A stretch of DNA of 64,000 bases from Halorhodospira halophila. GTDB taxonomy: Bacteria; Pseudomonadota; Gammaproteobacteria; Nitrococcales; Halorhodospiraceae. Positions 2,961 to 11,000 of this stretch are shown one piece after another. The first letter of the stretch is position 1. Each line of letters starts with the position of its first letter. The position numbers and the translations under genes were made by a program. The stretch is taken from assembly GCF_016653405.1 (NCBI RefSeq), contig NZ_NHSN01000025.1, forward strand, positions 1 to 64,000. Reading direction: 5' to 3'. The notes below the pieces were generated by a model. It ran no database searches. It saw only the letters and a program-made list of their open reading frames with translations, and was not told the DNA's origin.

Positions 2961-4589
2961 TCACCGGCGCCCCGACGCCGCCACCTCGGTGGCGGCGCTG
3001 CGGGTCCGGGCGCTCAGGCGCTGGCAACTGGCCAACTCCTCGTGCACGTCGGCCATCGCCCCCCCATCGGCCCCCGCCACCGCCTCGGCCAGCTGCCCGG
3101 CCAACCGCCGTGCGTGGCGCCGACCTCCGGGCCCGAGCAGTGCGCGCCCCAACCAGCCGAGCAGCAGGCTGGCCACACTGCCGCCGGCGAGCAGGGCAAA
3201 GGGCCAGCTGATCTCACCCGCCACCGCCGGCGCGGGCACGCTCGGCAAGGCCAGCCACTCGGCACCTCCCCGCGTGACCAGCCAGAGCCCGCCGAAAAGC
3301 GCGGCGGCCTCACTGGCGCCCCGTAAGGCCCCCACCCCCCGCCACCAGAGGCGCGGACGGGGCGACCAGGCCAGCTCGCCCAATCGCCCCCGCAGCTCGC
3401 CGGCGCGCGGCACCGCTGCAGTCACTGCCAGGCTGCGAAGCCGCTCTGCAGCCGGCTCCGGCAACCGCGCCGCGGCCGGCTCGATGGCCTGCAACAGGCC
3501 GTCACGCAGCAGCGGCTCGGCAACCTTCGGCCGCGGCAGCGCCGAGGTGGCGACGGCCGTGACCGCGGGACGCCCGCGCAGGCCCGAGAACAGCGCGCCG
3601 AGCAACCGCTTCAGCGGTGAGGCCACGGCCCGCATGCCGGCCTGACGATAGGCTCCGGCGGCACCGGCAAGCAGCTCGGCCTCGTTCACCGCCTGGCGCT
3701 GGGCCGTCACCAGCCTCTCGCCGTCGAGTTCGAGGCGCTCGGGATCGGGTAGACACGCCGCGCTCCGGCTGATCAGTTCGGTGACATCGGCACGGAGACG
3801 CTCCAGCGGCGCGCGGCGCTCACGCACCCGGGCAGCGATCCGCTCGGCCAGCCGGGAGACGCCCTCGCCCCCGACCGCGTCCGTGGCCAGCAGCTCCACC
3901 GCCTGCAGGCCCTGGCGGCCGAGCAGCTCTCGCAGGTGCTCCAGACAGGCATCCCGATCCGACGGGGTGAGACGATCGGCATGGTTCAGGGCGACCATCA
4001 GCACCTCGGCATGATGGGCCAGGCGGGCGAAGTACCCCTCATGGGCCAGCGCGTGGGCATACTTGAGCGGATCAACAACCCACAGCAGCAGGTCGCAGCG
4101 CTCGATCAGCCGCTCAGCCACCGCCCAGTGGTCCTGCACCACCGAATCCATATCGGGCAGGTCGAGGAGCACCGCACCATCCAGATCACTGCGTCCGCGA
4201 CCATCCGGCACGCTACGCCGCTCGAAGACCTGTAGCCAGTCGAGCAGCGCTGCGACCCGGTCATCCTCGCCCACGGTCACTGCCACCGCGTGATCCGTCG
4301 TCGGCCGGCGTACCCCCGGGGCAGAGACCTCCTCGCCCACCAGGGCATTCACCAAAGAGGATTTCCCACTGCCGGTCCCGCCGGCCACGGCGATCACGAC
4401 ATGATCCCGTGAGCGGGCCAGACGCTCCCGGGCCCGTCCCTGCACATGCGCCATCTCGTCGACCAGCGTCGGCGGCAGGCGACCGGCACCGAGGCGATGC
4501 AGCGCCTCCAGGGTCTCCAGGCCGGTATCCACGTCGCTCGTCCCACGCGTGGCGACGCCGCTGCTGCTCGAGCCCAGCCGGCGCATCAC
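2961..4589 (-). CDS. YfjP-like/dynamin-superfamily GTPase with C-terminal membrane segments (second of a pair)
   Basis: A predicted GTPase of unknown role, 542 residues. G1 is GGTGSGKS at residues 70-77, a switch-I RPTT lies at 95-98, the G3 position reads DLPDMDS at 143-149 (no glycine of DxxG), and G4 is NHAD at 202-205. Two hydrophobic stretches near residues 435-455 and 470-495 suggest membrane attachment close to the C-terminus. The ATG at 4589 overlaps the stop of the upstream GTPase by 4 nt, implying translational coupling. From memory, the sequence resembles the second member of a two-GTPase module common in Actinobacteria. Alternative calls are an Era-like GTPase or a divergent dynamin-like protein. 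Convergent with ectC. Confidence 0.8.
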   Translation of the reverse strand: MMRRLGSSSSGVATRGTSDVDTGLETLEALHRLGAGRLPPTLVDEMAHVQGRARERLARSRDHVVIAVAGGTGSGKSSLVNALVGEEVSAPGVRRPTTDHAVAVTVGEDDRVAALLDWLQVFERRSVPDGRGRSDLDGAVLLDLPDMDSVVQDHWAVAERLIERCDLLLWVVDPLKYAHALAHEGYFARLAHHAEVLMVALNHADRLTPSDRDACLEHLRELLGRQGLQAVELLATDAVGGEGVSRLAERIAARVRERRAPLERLRADVTELISRSAACLPDPERLELDGERLVTAQRQAVNEAELLAGAAGAYRQAGMRAVASPLKRLLGALFSGLRGRPAVTAVATSALPRPKVAEPLLRDGLLQAIEPAAARLPEPAAERLRSLAVTAAVPRAGELRGRLGELAWSPRPRLWWRGVGALRGASEAAALFGGLWLVTRGGAEWLALPSVPAPAVAGEISWPFALLAGGSVASLLLGWLGRALLGPGGRRHARRLAGQLAEAVAGADGGAMADVHEELASCQRLSARTRSAATEVAASGRR

Positions 4590-6256
4590 AGCACCCCCGC
4601 CAGCGCATCCCGCCGGGCCCGCACCGCATCCACCGCCTCCGGCGACGGGGCTGCCACAGTCAGTAACCGGTGGTAGACCTGCGCCTCGGACTCGGCGAGT
4701 TCGGCGACCCGGTTGTGGAGATCCTCGCGGATATCGGTGATGAGCTGATGGACGTTGCGTTCGCCGAGGATCCGCGAGAGGACCGTGTGGGTCGTGGTCG
4801 AACCTGCGGCGGTCAGGGCCAGCTCGCCGGTGCTCAGGCCGCCACTGAGGGTGAAGAGGACCAGAACGGCGCTGGTGAAGGTGGCATTGATGCCGGTGGT
4901 TGCCCGGCGGGCCCAGCTGAGCTTGGCCCGACCGATGGTGGCCACGTGCTCGGCGACCTGCTGCTCCCAGGCCGCCACCAGCGCCTCGGCATCCGCACGC
5001 CGGGCGACTGAACCTGCGGCACGCGGACGCGGCTCCCGGGCGAAGATGGCACGACCCACCGGTTCCTGCTGCCAGGCACTCTCCACGCCGGCAGCGGTCT
5101 GCTCGAGAACCGTGTGCAGCATCTCGGCGATACCAGCGCGGGCCTCCTCCTTGGCCTCCTGCTCCACCTGACGCCCCCCTCGGCCCAGCGGCAACCAGGC
5201 CAACCAGCGCCGCGGCGAGAGCTGACCCACCGCCGCATGGAGCTGGCGCTGCAGCCAGCCACTGCCGACCAGCTCGGTCCAGCGGCGCAGCACCTCCCGG
5301 CGCAAGGGCTCCCCCTCGTGGAGCTGGGTGAGCACGCGCTGCGGGACGTCGGCGTAGTCCTCTTCGACGGTGGCGGCCAAACCGCGGGCCGCAGCGCGCT
5401 CCGAATCGACCGCCTCAAGCAGGGCGTCGACCTCTGCCGGCAGATAGCGCACGGCACCGAGCACCGTACGGCGCCGATGGGCGGCACGCTGCTCCGCCGG
5501 GGCGAGGGCGCGGATCCGCTCAAGCACCGGCCCGGCCACCGACTCGGGCAGGCGCTCGCCGGAGACCGGCGCCGTGGGCAGGTGCGCCGTCTCGACGGTG
5601 CGGTGGCCGGCGGCGTCGAGCTTCTCGGCCAGGTCGGGGAGGATCTCGTGCGCCTCGGCATCACTGGCCTGGGTCAGCACGACCAGGGTCGAGACGTCCA
5701 GCTGCGCCGCCTGGCGCAGATAGACCATGCCCGCCTCGTCGGCGTAGGTGCGGGCGGTGGCCAGCCAGACCCAGACATCGGCCACCTCCAGCAGGCGCTC
5801 GGTGGCGGCGCGATTGGCGGTCTCGACGCTGTCCACATCCGGCGCATCCACCACCACCAGGCCCTCCGGCACCGACTCCAGAGGGGCCGTGCGCAGAGCG
5901 GCGCGTTCGGCCTCCGCGGCCAGGACGCCGCGGCGCAGCACCGTATCCAGATCGCCGGGGCGTCCGATCACCGTGGGCACCGAGGTGGTCGGCCGGCGCG
6001 CGCTGGTGGCGGCCACCGCCGAGCCGGCCAGCGTGTTGGCCAGGGTGGATTTGCCGGCACCGGTACCGCCGGCGAAGACCACCAGCAGGGGCTCATCCTC
6101 GCGCTCGAGGCGGGCGATGAGCCCGTCCATACGGCGCAGAAGCCGTTCCCAGGGCGGCAGCCAGGGGGCATCCCGGAGGCGGGCCGCCTCGCCGTCGAGG
6201 CCGAGCAGGTCGTGGCGGAGTTCGGTGAGGGTCTGCTGGAGCTCTTCGCGGTCCAT
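4586..6256 (-). CDS. Dynamin-superfamily-like GTPase (first of a pair)
   Basis: A predicted membrane-associated GTPase of 556 residues from the ATG at 6256; a GTG at 6292 in the same frame would add 12 residues, and neither has a clear Shine-Dalgarno. G1 is GGTGAGKST at residues 63-71, switch-I is RRPTTS at 87-92, and the G3 position is DAPDVDS at 137-143, closely matching its partner. G4 is poor: LTQASD near residue 185 replaces N/TKxD. A hydrophobic segment near residues 450-480 may span or enter the membrane. It overlaps the downstream GTPase gene by 4 nt. A 9-bp inverted repeat (6280-6313) sits in its leader. The function is unknown; membrane remodelling or stress tolerance is only a guess. 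Confidence 0.78.
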   Translation of the reverse strand: MDREELQQTLTELRHDLLGLDGEAARLRDAPWLPPWERLLRRMDGLIARLEREDEPLLVVFAGGTGAGKSTLANTLAGSAVAATSARRPTTSVPTVIGRPGDLDTVLRRGVLAAEAERAALRTAPLESVPEGLVVVDAPDVDSVETANRAATERLLEVADVWVWLATARTYADEAGMVYLRQAAQLDVSTLVVLTQASDAEAHEILPDLAEKLDAAGHRTVETAHLPTAPVSGERLPESVAGPVLERIRALAPAEQRAAHRRRTVLGAVRYLPAEVDALLEAVDSERAAARGLAATVEEDYADVPQRVLTQLHEGEPLRREVLRRWTELVGSGWLQRQLHAAVGQLSPRRWLAWLPLGRGGRQVEQEAKEEARAGIAEMLHTVLEQTAAGVESAWQQEPVGRAIFAREPRPRAAGSVARRADAEALVAAWEQQVAEHVATIGRAKLSWARRATTGINATFTSAVLVLFTLSGGLSTGELALTAAGSTTTHTVLSRILGERNVHQLITDIREDLHNRVAELAESEAQVYHRLLTVAAPSPEAVDAVRARRDALAGVL

Positions 6257-6279
6257 CGCGACAAGATACAGGGAAACCC

Positions 6280-6313
6280 GGTGGATGTTCACGTACCCGG
6301 CCCGACATCCACC
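6280..6313. repeat. Inverted repeat upstream of the GTPase pair
   Basis: GGTGGATGT (6280-6288) is the exact reverse complement of ACATCCACC (6305-6313), with a 16-nt spacer. It lies just upstream of the ATG at 6256 of the first GTPase gene. It could be a leader hairpin or a dyad operator. The alternative GTG start at 6292 falls in the loop. Confidence 0.6.
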
Positions 6314-6363: not shown

Positions 6364-8079
6364 CTATTCGACCTTCTCGAGGTCCACGGCGACAGGATCA
6401 TGATCGGAGGAGCGGTAGGCGTCGTCGCGGACGCGCTGCGGGTCACTGTCGAACTCCAGAAAGCGCGGTTCGTCGGCGTTGATCGGATGCCGGTGAACCG
6501 CTGCCACGCGCCCGGCCAGCGCCGGGTGGGCCTGCAGATGATCCAGGTAGCCCGATTCACCACGGAAGACGTAGGTGTAGCGCTCGGGCCATGGCAGGTG
6601 CTCAGCGAGCAGATCCACCTTGCCCGCCGCGGCCAGGGCACGCGCCGGATCCTCGCCGCCGTAGGCGTTTAGATCGCCGGCGATCAGCACCGGCAGGAGC
6701 TCGTCGCGCTCACTGCGCCAGCGCTCGAGGTACTCGACCAGCGCTCCGGCCTGCTCGGTCCGGCGCCGGTTCCAGCACCCCTGGCCTCGATCCACGTCCC
6801 CGGCATCCGGGCAACGGGTTTTCGACTTGAAGTGGATGCCCGTCACGGCGAAGGGATCCCCACCCCCACGGGGTCGAAATGCGGCCAGCGGCGGCGGGCG
6901 GTGATGAACGCCCCGGGCATCACGAACGGTCCCGGTCAGCGGCTCGACCCGATCTTCGCGATAGGCCAGGGAGACCTTGATGGCGTCGCTGCCGGTCTCC
7001 CCGCCGCTGGCCAAGCGCCAGGGGTGGCCGGTGGCCGCAGCCAGCCTTTCGATGAAGTCCTCGGGGGCGTCCCGGCGATTCTCCATCTCCACCAGCACCA
7101 GCATGTCGGCGTGCAAGGATTCTGCGGCGGCGAGCAGCTTGGCCCGCTGGCGCTGCAGTTCTGCCCGTCTGGCCGCACCGCGCTCCCCCAGGGTGAGGAA
7201 GTAGTTCTCAACGTTGAAGGCCGCCACCCGCACCGTGCCCGGCTCCGGCGACGGCAGCGACCCGGGTCGCGGGTTGGACTGCTCGAACCCGGGGGGCTCG
7301 GTCGGGTGCAGGCGCCAGGCGCCGAAGGCGTGGGTCAGCACTCCGGTCAGGTCCGTCACCCGGCTCCCCACCCGCCGCGTGCCGTCGGCATCCAGGTGGG
7401 GTATGGGATCGGGCCGGCTCCGGTAGCTGCCGTCATCCAGACGCAGGCGTCCCGCGATCAGGGCCGGATCGTCAGGGCCGTGCCCAGGCAGGAAGTTGGT
7501 GGGGCGGAAGGCGCGCCGCTCAGGGGTCAGCTTCAGGGTACCGTAGCGCGCAAGCTCGTGGTTGCCGCTGACCACCATTGGCGGCCGGATGCGCACCAGC
7601 ACTCCCTCCAGGCGCTCCGGATCGGCCGCCGGCCACGCCACGGGATGGGGGGCCAGCTCGGCCTCTCCGCAGTCGCGGACCGCCTCCAGCCATTCGAGCT
7701 GAGGCCGCCCGCGGTGCTCGCCGGCACGACCGGTGAGCAGGACCCGCCGGCCGGGCTCGATGCGTTCACGCTGCTCGGATGCCAGCTCGGGGGCATAGAC
7801 GAACAGCCCCGCCGGCTTGCCGTCCGGGGCAGGCTCGACACTTTGGATGAAGAAGCCGTCCAGCCCGTCCTCACCGAGGAAGGCGCCGGTCACCACACCG
7901 CACACCTGGATCGTCTCGTCCGGAGCCGGGCGATCGTCTATCTGCCCGGCCACTTTGTGGACAGCGGTGGTCTCCGCGGAGGCACACACTCCGTCGGCGG
8001 ACGCCGCGCCGCCGGCGAGCAGTAGCACGGCTCCGAGCAGAACCGGCGCCCATCCCGCTGCCATGCGTATTCCAGTCAC
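6364..8079 (-). CDS. Secreted ExeM/NucH-family endonuclease (EEP fold)
   Basis: A predicted extracellular DNA/RNA-degrading enzyme. The GTG at 8079 is chosen because GGGAGGAG sits 6 nt upstream and it opens directly into a signal peptide (LLGAVLLLAGGAASA, cleavage near residue 28). An OB-fold-like region follows (about residues 45-150), then an endonuclease/exonuclease/phosphatase domain with RVAAFNVENYFLT near residue 284, LVEMENR near 335, IAGDLNAYGG near 495 and SSDHDPVAVDLE at the C-terminus. These give the catalytic Asn, Glu, Asp/Asn and Asp-His residues of the family. It begins 19 nt after the RND pump stop, so it is probably the last gene of that operon. The gene name exeM would be tentative. 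Confidence 0.88.
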   Translation of the reverse strand: MTGIRMAAGWAPVLLGAVLLLAGGAASADGVCASAETTAVHKVAGQIDDRPAPDETIQVCGVVTGAFLGEDGLDGFFIQSVEPAPDGKPAGLFVYAPELASEQRERIEPGRRVLLTGRAGEHRGRPQLEWLEAVRDCGEAELAPHPVAWPAADPERLEGVLVRIRPPMVVSGNHELARYGTLKLTPERRAFRPTNFLPGHGPDDPALIAGRLRLDDGSYRSRPDPIPHLDADGTRRVGSRVTDLTGVLTHAFGAWRLHPTEPPGFEQSNPRPGSLPSPEPGTVRVAAFNVENYFLTLGERGAARRAELQRQRAKLLAAAESLHADMLVLVEMENRRDAPEDFIERLAAATGHPWRLASGGETGSDAIKVSLAYREDRVEPLTGTVRDARGVHHRPPPLAAFRPRGGGDPFAVTGIHFKSKTRCPDAGDVDRGQGCWNRRRTEQAGALVEYLERWRSERDELLPVLIAGDLNAYGGEDPARALAAAGKVDLLAEHLPWPERYTYVFRGESGYLDHLQAHPALAGRVAAVHRHPINADEPRFLEFDSDPQRVRDDAYRSSDHDPVAVDLEKVE

Positions 8080-8098
8080 CGTGGACTCCTCCCTGAGT

Positions 8099-11000
8099 TC
8101 ACTCCCTCGCCCGCGGCGCGCCGTGGGCCCGTTCCAGGCGCTCCAGCTCGGCACCGACCACATTGACCGGGGTGGTGTACCGAGCCAGCCAGTCGTAAAG
8201 GACCGGGATGACGAACAGCGTCAACAGGGTCGCAAACCCCATGCCGCCGATGATCACGGTACCGATGGCGGCACGGCTCTCGGCCCCGGCGCCCAGCGCC
8301 AGAACCAGGGGGACCGCACCGAAGACTGTGGAGATCGCCGTCATCAAGACGGGACGGAAGCGCAGCACCGCCCCGGCGTGGATGGCCTCGCGCACGCTGT
8401 AGCCCTGGTCCCGCAGCTGATTGGCGAACTCAACGATCAGGATCCCGTTCTTCGTCATCAGGCCGATTAGCAGGATCATACCGATCTGGCTGTAGATGTT
8501 CAGGCTGCTGCCGCCGAGCAGAAGCGCACCCAGGGCCCCAGTGATGGCCAGCGGCACCGCGGTCATGATGATCAGCGGATGGACGAAGCTCTCGAACTGC
8601 GCCGAGAGCACCAGAAAGACGATGAGCAGAGCCAGACCGAAGGTGAGGAAGACCGCCCCGCCGGCGCGCTTGAACTCGTCCGACAGGCCCAGGTAGCTGA
8701 TCCGCGCTGTGGCGGGCAGCTCCTCGGCGGCCACCTGCTCGAGGTAAGCCAGGGCCGCGCCCAAGTCGTAACCCGGCGCCAGCGACGCGGTCAGCGTCAC
8801 CGCCGGCAGGCGATCGACGCGGCTGAGAGCCGGCGGCGCGCCCTCCTCTTCTAAGGTGACTAAGGCCGAGAGGGGGATCAGCGCACCGTCGTTGAGGCTG
8901 CGCACGTGCAGCCGGGCCAGGTCGCCCGGGTTGCGCCGATCCACCGCCTCGGCCTGGAGCATGACGTCGTACTCGCGCCCGCGGTCGAGGTAAGCGGTCA
9001 CCGTGCGCGAGGCAAGCAGGGTCTGCACGGTGCGCCCCAGCGCCTCGGCACTGACCCCGAGGTCAGCGGCCCGGCCACGGTCGATGCGCACGTTGAGCTG
9101 CGGACGCGTGGCGTCATAGCTGCTGTCGAGGTTGACCAGGCGGGGATTTTCGTCCCGGGCCCGATCCAGGATGCGCCCGGTCCAGCCGGCTACCTCATCG
9201 TAATCGGTGCCACCGACCACGAACTGTACCGGCTGCTGGAATCCGCTCTGGCCGAGACCCGGGGGATTCACGGCGAAGGCGCGCACGCCGGGGACGCCCA
9301 TCAGCCGCGGCATGGTCTCGGCGACAATCTGCTGCTGACTCCGCGAACGATCGCCCCAGTCCTCCAGGCCAACAATGATGAACGCGCTATTGGCGCGCCC
9401 GCCAAAGCCCAGGATGCTCAGCACCCGACGAGCCTCACCAGTCTCCTCGCGCAGCGGCCGCAGGATCTCCTCCAGCTCGCGTACGCCGGCATCGGTGTGC
9501 GCCGCGGTGCTGCCCTCCGGCGCGCTCGCCGGGACAATGAACACGCCGCGGTCCTCGGTGGGGGTCAGCTCTTGGGGCAGCGCCTGATAGAGCGCATAGG
9601 CGCCGACGGCGGCGGCCACCCCGACGCCGAGCACGGCGATGGGCGCCTGCAGCGCACCGCCCAGCGCACGACGGTAGCCGCCGGTCAGGCCGGTGAAGAA
9701 CCGCTCGGCAACCGCTTCGAGCCCCCCTGGCTGTGCCGCCCGGGGGCGCAGCCACTTGGAACAAAGCATGCCCGTCAGGGTCAGGGCAACGAAGCTGGAG
9801 AACACCACCGCCGCCGCCAGCACCAGCCCGAACTCGGTGAACAGACGTCCGACGTTCCCCTCCATGAACGCAATGGGCACGAAGACCGCCACCAACGAGA
9901 TGGTGGTGGCAATGACCGCGAAACCCACCTGGCGCACGCCGCGGTAGGCGGCCAGCAGCGGCGGCTCGCCCTCGTCGATGCGCCGCTGGATGTTCTCCAG
10001 CACCACGATGGCGTCGTCGACCACCAGCCCGATGGCCAGGATCAGCGCCAGCAGCGTCAGGACGTTGAGCGAGAAGCCGAGCGGACCCATGACGATGAAC
10101 GCGCCGATTACCGCCACCGGGATGGTCACCGAAGGGATCAGGGTGGCGCGCAGGCTGCGCAGGAAGACGAAGATAGTCAGCACCACCAACCCGACGGCGA
10201 TCAGCAGGGTGCGCACCACCTCGCGGATCGACTGGCGCACGAACTGCGACTCGTCGTAGCCGACCACCAGACGCAGATCGGCGGGCAGCTGATCCTCGAG
10301 CCGGGCCATCTCGGCGAGCACGGCGTCGGCGACGGCGATGGTGTTGGCCCGGGACTGGCGAATGATCCCCAGCCCCACCGCGGTCTCGCCGTCCAGGCGC
10401 ACGGCGGTGTCGTCATCCTCCACCCCGCGTTCGACCCGGGCTACCTCGCCCAGGCGGACCAGCTCGTCGCCGCGGCGCTCAATGACCAGGCGAGCGAAGT
10501 CGTCGCGATCGCGCAGCCGGGTGTCGGTGCGCACGGTCAGCTGCCGGGCCACCGACTCGATCTCGCCGGCGGGCAGCTCGATGTTCTCCCGGCGCAGGGC
10601 ATTCTCCACGTCCTCGACGGTCAGGGCGCGGGCCGCCAGGGCCTCGCTGTCGAGCCAGATGCGCATGGCGTAGCGCCGCTCGCCGCCGATACGCACCCGC
10701 GCCACCCCGTCGAGTACCGAAAGCCGATCCACCAGATGACGGTCGGCGTAGTCGGTCATCTCCTCGGGGCTCATGCGGCTACTGCTCAGGGACAGCCACA
10801 TCATCGGCCGGGCGTCGGCCTCGGTCTTGGCCACCACCGGGGGGTCGGCATCCGCGGGCAGGTCGTCGAGGATCCGTCCGATGGCGTCACGCACGTCGTT
10901 GGCGGCGGCGTCGATATCCCGCCCCACCTCGAACTCGATATCCGTCTCACCGCGCCCGTCGCGACTCTCCGAGGTCATCGAGCGGATCCCGTCGACACTG

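Follow-up and report, generated by a model that had tools for sequence, protein, structure and literature searches.

A probable heterotypic pair of dynamin-like GTPases in Halorhodospira with apparent affinity to Nitriliruptoria

Introduction

Most bacterial dynamin-like proteins (DLPs) are encoded as side-by-side pairs in operons, and in the Campylobacter jejuni pair each protein alone hydrolyses little GTP, GTP turnover requires the P-loops of both, and membranes or liposomes are tethered by the tetramer (PMC6104087, which also cites an interaction between DynA and DynB). Mycobacterial IniA/IniC likewise represent an operon pair of DLPs, in this case an actinobacterial one. The pairing of bacterial dynamins is already known, but few pairs have been studied. 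Here, we describe two adjoining GTPase genes of Halorhodospira halophila, a purple sulfur bacterium living in salt lakes, termed B (upstream) and A (downstream) below, which are located next to the ectoine genes ectABC on contig NZ_NHSN01000025.1; "the window" denotes the whole stretch of DNA analysed, i.e., positions 1 to 64,000 (64,000 nucleotides) of this contig. We consider it probable that B and A constitute a heterotypic, dynamin-like membrane-remodelling pair, made from overlapping genes and acquired as a unit from a lineage of the actinomycetotal class Nitriliruptoria, which is rich in halophiles; the donor itself was most likely halophilic.

Results and discussion

The two adjoining P-loop GTPase genes that a previous, sequence-only reading of the window had placed beside ectABC are both present as open reading frames (ORFs), and their origin by chance can be excluded because the encoded proteins share 60-91% (B) and 47-76% (A) identity across the genus, with B being the slower-evolving and A the faster-evolving partner. 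The pair was found in 9 of 9 Halorhodospira genomes, in one of which it is distributed over two contigs and in another truncated at the end of a contig, and none of the other 45 genomes from the same order has it; several genomes are drafts, and absence from any single genome is weak evidence. The same-genus loci include those of H. abdelmalekii and H. neutriphila, in addition to Ectothiorhodospiraceae metagenome-assembled genomes (MAGs). Scanning genome contigs with the genus alignment returned the genus itself and a weak match in Rhodococcoides, and no homologue of A was found in the latter genome.

Assignment to the dynamin superfamily is based on both profiles and predicted structure. The Pfam model Dynamin_N (gathering cut-off of 27 bits) matched A at 42.3 bits and B at 35.6 bits, and it was matched at E<=1e-3 by all 21 family members sampled, while A and B are homologous to each other through the G domain (hhalign probability 99.7%, E 8e-27). 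The AlphaFold model of B, built from a shallow alignment of 7 sequences (predicted local distance difference test [pLDDT] score of 77), shows N-terminal helices, a G domain, a long helical stalk and a low-confidence hydrophobic tip, and its best Foldseek matches were BDLP (3e-10), IniA (7e-10) and the C. jejuni pair (9e-9, chain 5owv_C; structures 5owv and 5oxf), followed by dynamins and mitofusins. That is, the modelled B combines a G domain with neck/trunk helical bundles and a membrane tip. By sequence, matches of A and B to solved structures either covered no more than portions of the G domain or were short and weak. Similarity to Cj-DLP1/Cj-DLP2 is confined to the P-loop region, and Cj-DLP1 carries a Campylobacter-specific assembly domain (PMC6104087); similarity to IniA/IniC beyond the P-loop, as expected of orthologues, was not found, and no IniA chain was among the PDB sequence matches listed. 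On fold and Pfam grounds, we regard the pair as a variant functioning in the manner of a DLP and not as a canonical member of the superfamily, because its G3 motif reads DxPDxDS instead of DxxG.

The P-loop, RPTT and DxPDxDS motifs previously pointed out in both proteins are present, with the key positions of the P-loops, of RPTT and of DLPDMDS (A) or DAPDVDS (B) invariant across the genus. Among 12 A and B proteins from Halorhodospira, Actinomycetota and Gammaproteobacteria, D-x-P-D-x-D-S, the Asp following it and the tyrosine of a KY/RY motif are invariant. The canonical DxxG occurs in neither A nor B, its Gly being replaced by Asp in both phyla; unpaired GTPases recovered by the same searches (L110 and L229) have an ordinary DTPG. 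With respect to G4, N202 and D205 of A do not vary within the genus or among the sampled Actinomycetota; most A members also have a TSA-like G5. The proposal that LTQASD represents the G4 of B did not hold, since its Asp is missing even in the sister species; B is without G4 in all Actinomycetota sampled and in Halorhodospira. Consequently, the idea of one intact and one degenerate dynamin-like partner is supported as far as G4 is concerned, and, because B loses G4 across the actinobacterial sample, the asymmetry is a property of that branch and not an accident of one genome. Hydropathy recovered the hydrophobic segments previously noted near both C-termini, with A having a two-helix hairpin that is clear in most relatives and weaker in the window copy, and B a single stretch (residues ~452-486).

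Full-length relatives of the pair are common in Actinomycetota. In an even sample of 149 genomes, about 26 had a strong A match (E<1e-35), with a B-type gene upstream wherever the contig reaches; a second sample gave strong B matches in 49 of 396 genomes, and the genomes behind the ten best of these 49 all belong to one class (that of genome G131), in which 37 of 66 genomes have a match. We identified this class as Nitriliruptoria because one member (G621) carries a Euzebya pacifica plasmid sequence (100% identity, identical coordinates) and NCBI places this species there. Wherever both ORFs scored >90 bits (52 actinomycetotal loci), all 52 had the two genes on the same strand in the order B then A, and in most loci the A domain starts within ~60 nt of the B stop. 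No orphan A or B genes were seen in the Actinomycetota examined, except at contig ends or next to a more-diverged partner. The actinobacterial pairs share with those of Halorhodospira sequence similarity over the full length, the order, the overlap, DxPDxDS in both proteins, NxxD in the downstream protein only, and the C-terminal hydrophobic segments. They differ in that the Halorhodospira copies are only ~29-39% identical to them and adjoin an endonuclease gene and ectABC rather than ssb or ABC-F genes. In its tight B-then-A order, its signature motifs and its tree placement (below), the Halorhodospira pair agrees with the actinobacterial tandem DxPDxDS pairs.

Separate trees were computed for B (60 rows) and for A (53 rows), in both of which Halorhodospira formed a clade (100/100) beside the same group of Nitriliruptoria, inside a larger Nitriliruptoria clade, and the placement was unchanged when gammaproteobacterial outgroups were included (support of 99/95 for B, 95/87 for A and 100/99 for the joint alignment). 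An approximately unbiased (AU) test of the joint A+B alignment rejected, only modestly, a topology with Halorhodospira outside all Actinomycetota (p=0.034). These results point to a likely single transfer of the two-gene unit from a Nitriliruptoria lineage into the ancestor of Halorhodospira, and the earlier suggestion of a transferred module fares well in view of the closest relatives found and the invariant pairing. There was an opportunity for such transfer, since hypersaline soda-lake sediments harbour abundant Nitriliruptoria as well as an abundant close relative of Halorhodospira (PMC6146748). The arrangement is not, however, confined to Actinomycetota, as had been assumed: using a mixed Halorhodospira/actinobacterial profile, we found adjacent GTPase genes, B-like then A-like, in 5 of 123 other genomes (L224-L228), with frames that overlap (by 4 nt in L226), DxPDxDS in both proteins and C-terminal hydrophobic segments. 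In these gammaproteobacterial pairs, the B-like protein has retained NK at G4, with L224 and L228 having the canonical NKxD, and the pairs share 14-24% identity with those of Halorhodospira and form a separate deep clade, apparently representing a separate family in scattered genera. None was detected within the order of Halorhodospira at the threshold of the order-wide scan; an earlier scan of 398 Pseudomonadota, which scored three candidates per genome, showed none of these gammaproteobacterial pairs and is not relied upon here.

It is important to note that several observations weigh against a dynamin-like pair of nitriliruptorian origin. For A, whose alignment was likewise shallow, only a poor model was obtained (pLDDT of 73), and its best matches, although to DLPs, reach only 6e-3 (BDLP); the TM-scores of the B model against known DLPs are low (0.2-0.4), for which hinge motion in the modelled protein is a likely reason. 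The branch leading to Halorhodospira is long (~1 change per site), an intermediate donor may have been involved because the phyla sampled were Pseudomonadota and Actinomycetota only, and vertical descent remains compatible with the AU test on B alone (p=0.14). Together with the divergent gammaproteobacterial pairs, the last result would suit an old proteobacterial pair that was lost except in Halorhodospira and a few gammaproteobacteria. We regard such vertical inheritance as very unlikely, given that Halorhodospira falls within Nitriliruptoria, and not with the gammaproteobacterial version, in the A, B and joint trees, that the joint test speaks against it, and that the rest of the order is devoid of the pair.

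The proximity of the pair to ectABC raises the question of whether both belong to one osmoadaptation module acting on membrane stress under salt, as had been speculated. The two are adjacent in most Halorhodospira genomes, and both the host and the likely donor class include halophiles, but the genes are convergent and not co-transcribed. Further, in one genome (G001, L024:2122-2829) ectABC was apparently deleted between tsaB and A, leaving the last 13 ectC codons as a scar beside an intact pair, and no ectB was found elsewhere in this MAG (83% complete). In H. abdelmalekii, the ect cluster is split: ectC (L026:5677-6051) adjoins A with the relative orientation reversed, and ectB is found on a different contig (G002:C40:26031-27308). 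Nor was there co-occurrence across the 66 Nitriliruptoria, where ectC is present in 5 of 37 genomes with the pair vs. 7 of 29 without it (Fisher p=0.34) and is located on a different contig or at a distance of hundreds of kilobases. Accordingly, a functional link to ectoine appears highly improbable, and the best interpretation of the adjacency is that of an insertion site retained through descent.

Under the hypothesis of a heterotypic dynamin-like pair, B and A would be made from overlapping genes in fixed order, with the tight overlap fitting coupled production, and would probably be anchored to the inner membrane through their C-terminal hydrophobic tips. A would serve as the GTP-selective, hydrolysing partner and B as the opposing nucleotide-pocket partner without guanine selection, i.e., an active and a regulatory subunit, and pairing of the two G domains may drive membrane tethering, fusion or scission in the course of envelope repair or remodelling. 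We infer the hetero-oligomerisation and the membrane activity by analogy with the C. jejuni pair (PMC6104087). After acquisition, vertical inheritance would have kept the unit between the endonuclease gene and tsaB and, in most species, beside ectABC.

Alternatively, the pair might act at the DNA or translation machinery as a regulatory GTPase couple of the Era/YfjP kind. A also matches the MMR_HSR1 and RsgA_GTPase models, the solved structures that it matches by sequence mostly have P-loops of the Era/Der/HflX type, and genes for ssb and an ABC-F ATPase lie 3' of the pair in several members of other actinobacterial groups. However, the conserved C-terminal hydrophobic segments of both subunits and the DLP-like fold of B do not fit this role, and the ssb/ABC-F neighbours are absent in Halorhodospira and inconsistent in Nitriliruptoria, so that we consider it unlikely. 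It is also conceivable that the pair serves cell division or the shaping of intracytoplasmic photosynthetic membranes instead of general membrane repair: Halorhodospira has stacked photosynthetic membranes, and Streptomyces DynA/DynB act in sporulation septation. Against this, the family occurs widely in Actinomycetota, a phylum whose members mostly lack membranes of this kind, and no division or photosynthesis gene adjoins the pair in the stretches examined; we deem such a role quite unlikely. Repair or remodelling by a dynamin-like pair is thus our first choice of physiological role, because the family occurs in many actinobacteria without photosynthetic membranes.

More broadly, and only tentatively, dynamin-like machines that obligately consist of two subunits may form a so far unrecognised class common to actinobacteria and gammaproteobacteria. 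In such machines, the Gly of DxxG in switch II would be replaced by Asp in both subunits (DxPDxDS), one of the two would progressively lose guanine recognition, and the whole could pass between phyla as a self-contained unit of two genes. If so, the DxPDxDS class would imply a mechanism of GTP hydrolysis or switching unlike that of other dynamins. A widespread family with a fixed order, the odd G3 in both partners and the G4 asymmetry would make it possible to test cleanly why two different subunits are required in dynamin pairs. The apparent arrival of two genes alone in one genus of a distant phylum suggests that they function without other actinobacterial partners, and Halorhodospira could thus represent a natural transplant for learning what the pair does. 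We found no published study of the pair in the literature under its annotation names, which we take to be "dynamin family protein" and "YfjP family GTPase".

Gene coordinates and neighbourhood

The coordinates of the two genes and their motifs are given in Table 1. The extent of the overlap depends on the choice of start: it amounts to 4 nt, as previously reported, only with the listed GTG at 4589 as the start of A, and to 1 nt (TGATG) with the ATG at 4586, which is the start conserved in relatives. Since one relative (L021) is without GTG at this position, the 4-nt figure stands or falls with that choice, while the tight coupling does not. For B, the listed start was the GTG at 6292, and the start conserved in relatives is the ATG at 6256 ("MDREE...").

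Table 1. Positions of the B and A genes and of their motifs within the window
Feature	Position	Strand	Description and evidence
Gene B, upstream subunit	4586..6256	-	556 aa, dynamin-like GTPase with degenerate G4; ORF, Dynamin_N 1.2e-8, orthologues, fold match to BDLP/IniA/Cj-DLP
B P-loop (G1) GGTGAGKS	6047..6070	-	Invariant in genus
B non-canonical G3 DAPDVDS	5828..5848	-	D.PD.DS invariant in actinobacterial-B and 12-protein alignments
B degenerate G4 position LTQASD	5660..5677	-	Not conserved
B hydrophobic tip, residues 452-497	4766..4903	-	Likely membrane-contacting paddle; hydropathy, low-confidence tip between model helices 420-453 and 499-532
B stop/A start junction GTGATG	4584..4589	-	Sequence; equivalent overlaps or abutments in relatives
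Gene A, downstream subunit	2961..4589	-	542 aa (541 from ATG 4586), GTPase with intact G1 and G4; ORF, Dynamin_N 1.1e-10, MMR_HSR1 1.4e-6, orthologues
A P-loop (G1) GGTGSGKS	4359..4382	-	Invariant in genus
A non-canonical G3 DLPDMDS	4143..4163	-	D.PD.DS invariant in actinobacterial-A and 12-protein alignments
A G4 NHAD	3975..3986	-	N and D invariant in Actinomycetota A alignment
A C-terminal hydrophobic hairpin, residues 414-447 and 453-482	3144..3350	-	Family hydropathy; helices in model

On the 3' side, ectA, ectB and ectC (610-2947) are separated from the end of A by 13 bp. On the 5' side, B is preceded by a gene with an endonuclease/exonuclease/phosphatase domain (6364-8163) and then by genes for a resistance-nodulation-division (RND) pump and a membrane-fusion protein. 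The endonuclease gene is directly upstream of B in 7 of 7 Halorhodospira relatives whose contig reaches there, and the N-terminal stretch of its product in the window resembles a signal peptide; the pump and membrane-fusion genes follow in some of these relatives only.

A few additional observations were made during the searches. Screening with PADLOC gave only weak LeoA/LeoBC matches, mainly to the P-loop region, and by this evidence the pair is not a defence system. The search of plasmids for carriers of the pair returned one chromosome-sized Nonomuraea record only, and viral contigs gave one host-like fragment at an element boundary (L216:1-5491, IMGVR_UViG_3300035523_000013), where a fragment of an actinobacterial A-type gene precedes an ssb-like gene and an ORF resembling serine recombinases, as if an integrated element adjoins an A-ssb locus. 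A weak match in G000:C1 corresponds to a GTPase resembling elongation factors and is unconnected with the pair. At L038 and L039 (Nonomuraea gerenzanensis) and at L205-L207 (G624), actinobacteria carry the pair or its relatives in two or three copies. Finally, the ssb and/or ABC-F ATPase genes that are often found 3' of the pair outside Nitriliruptoria (L092, L093, L097, L099, L102, L104 and L039) may hint at a conserved regulon.

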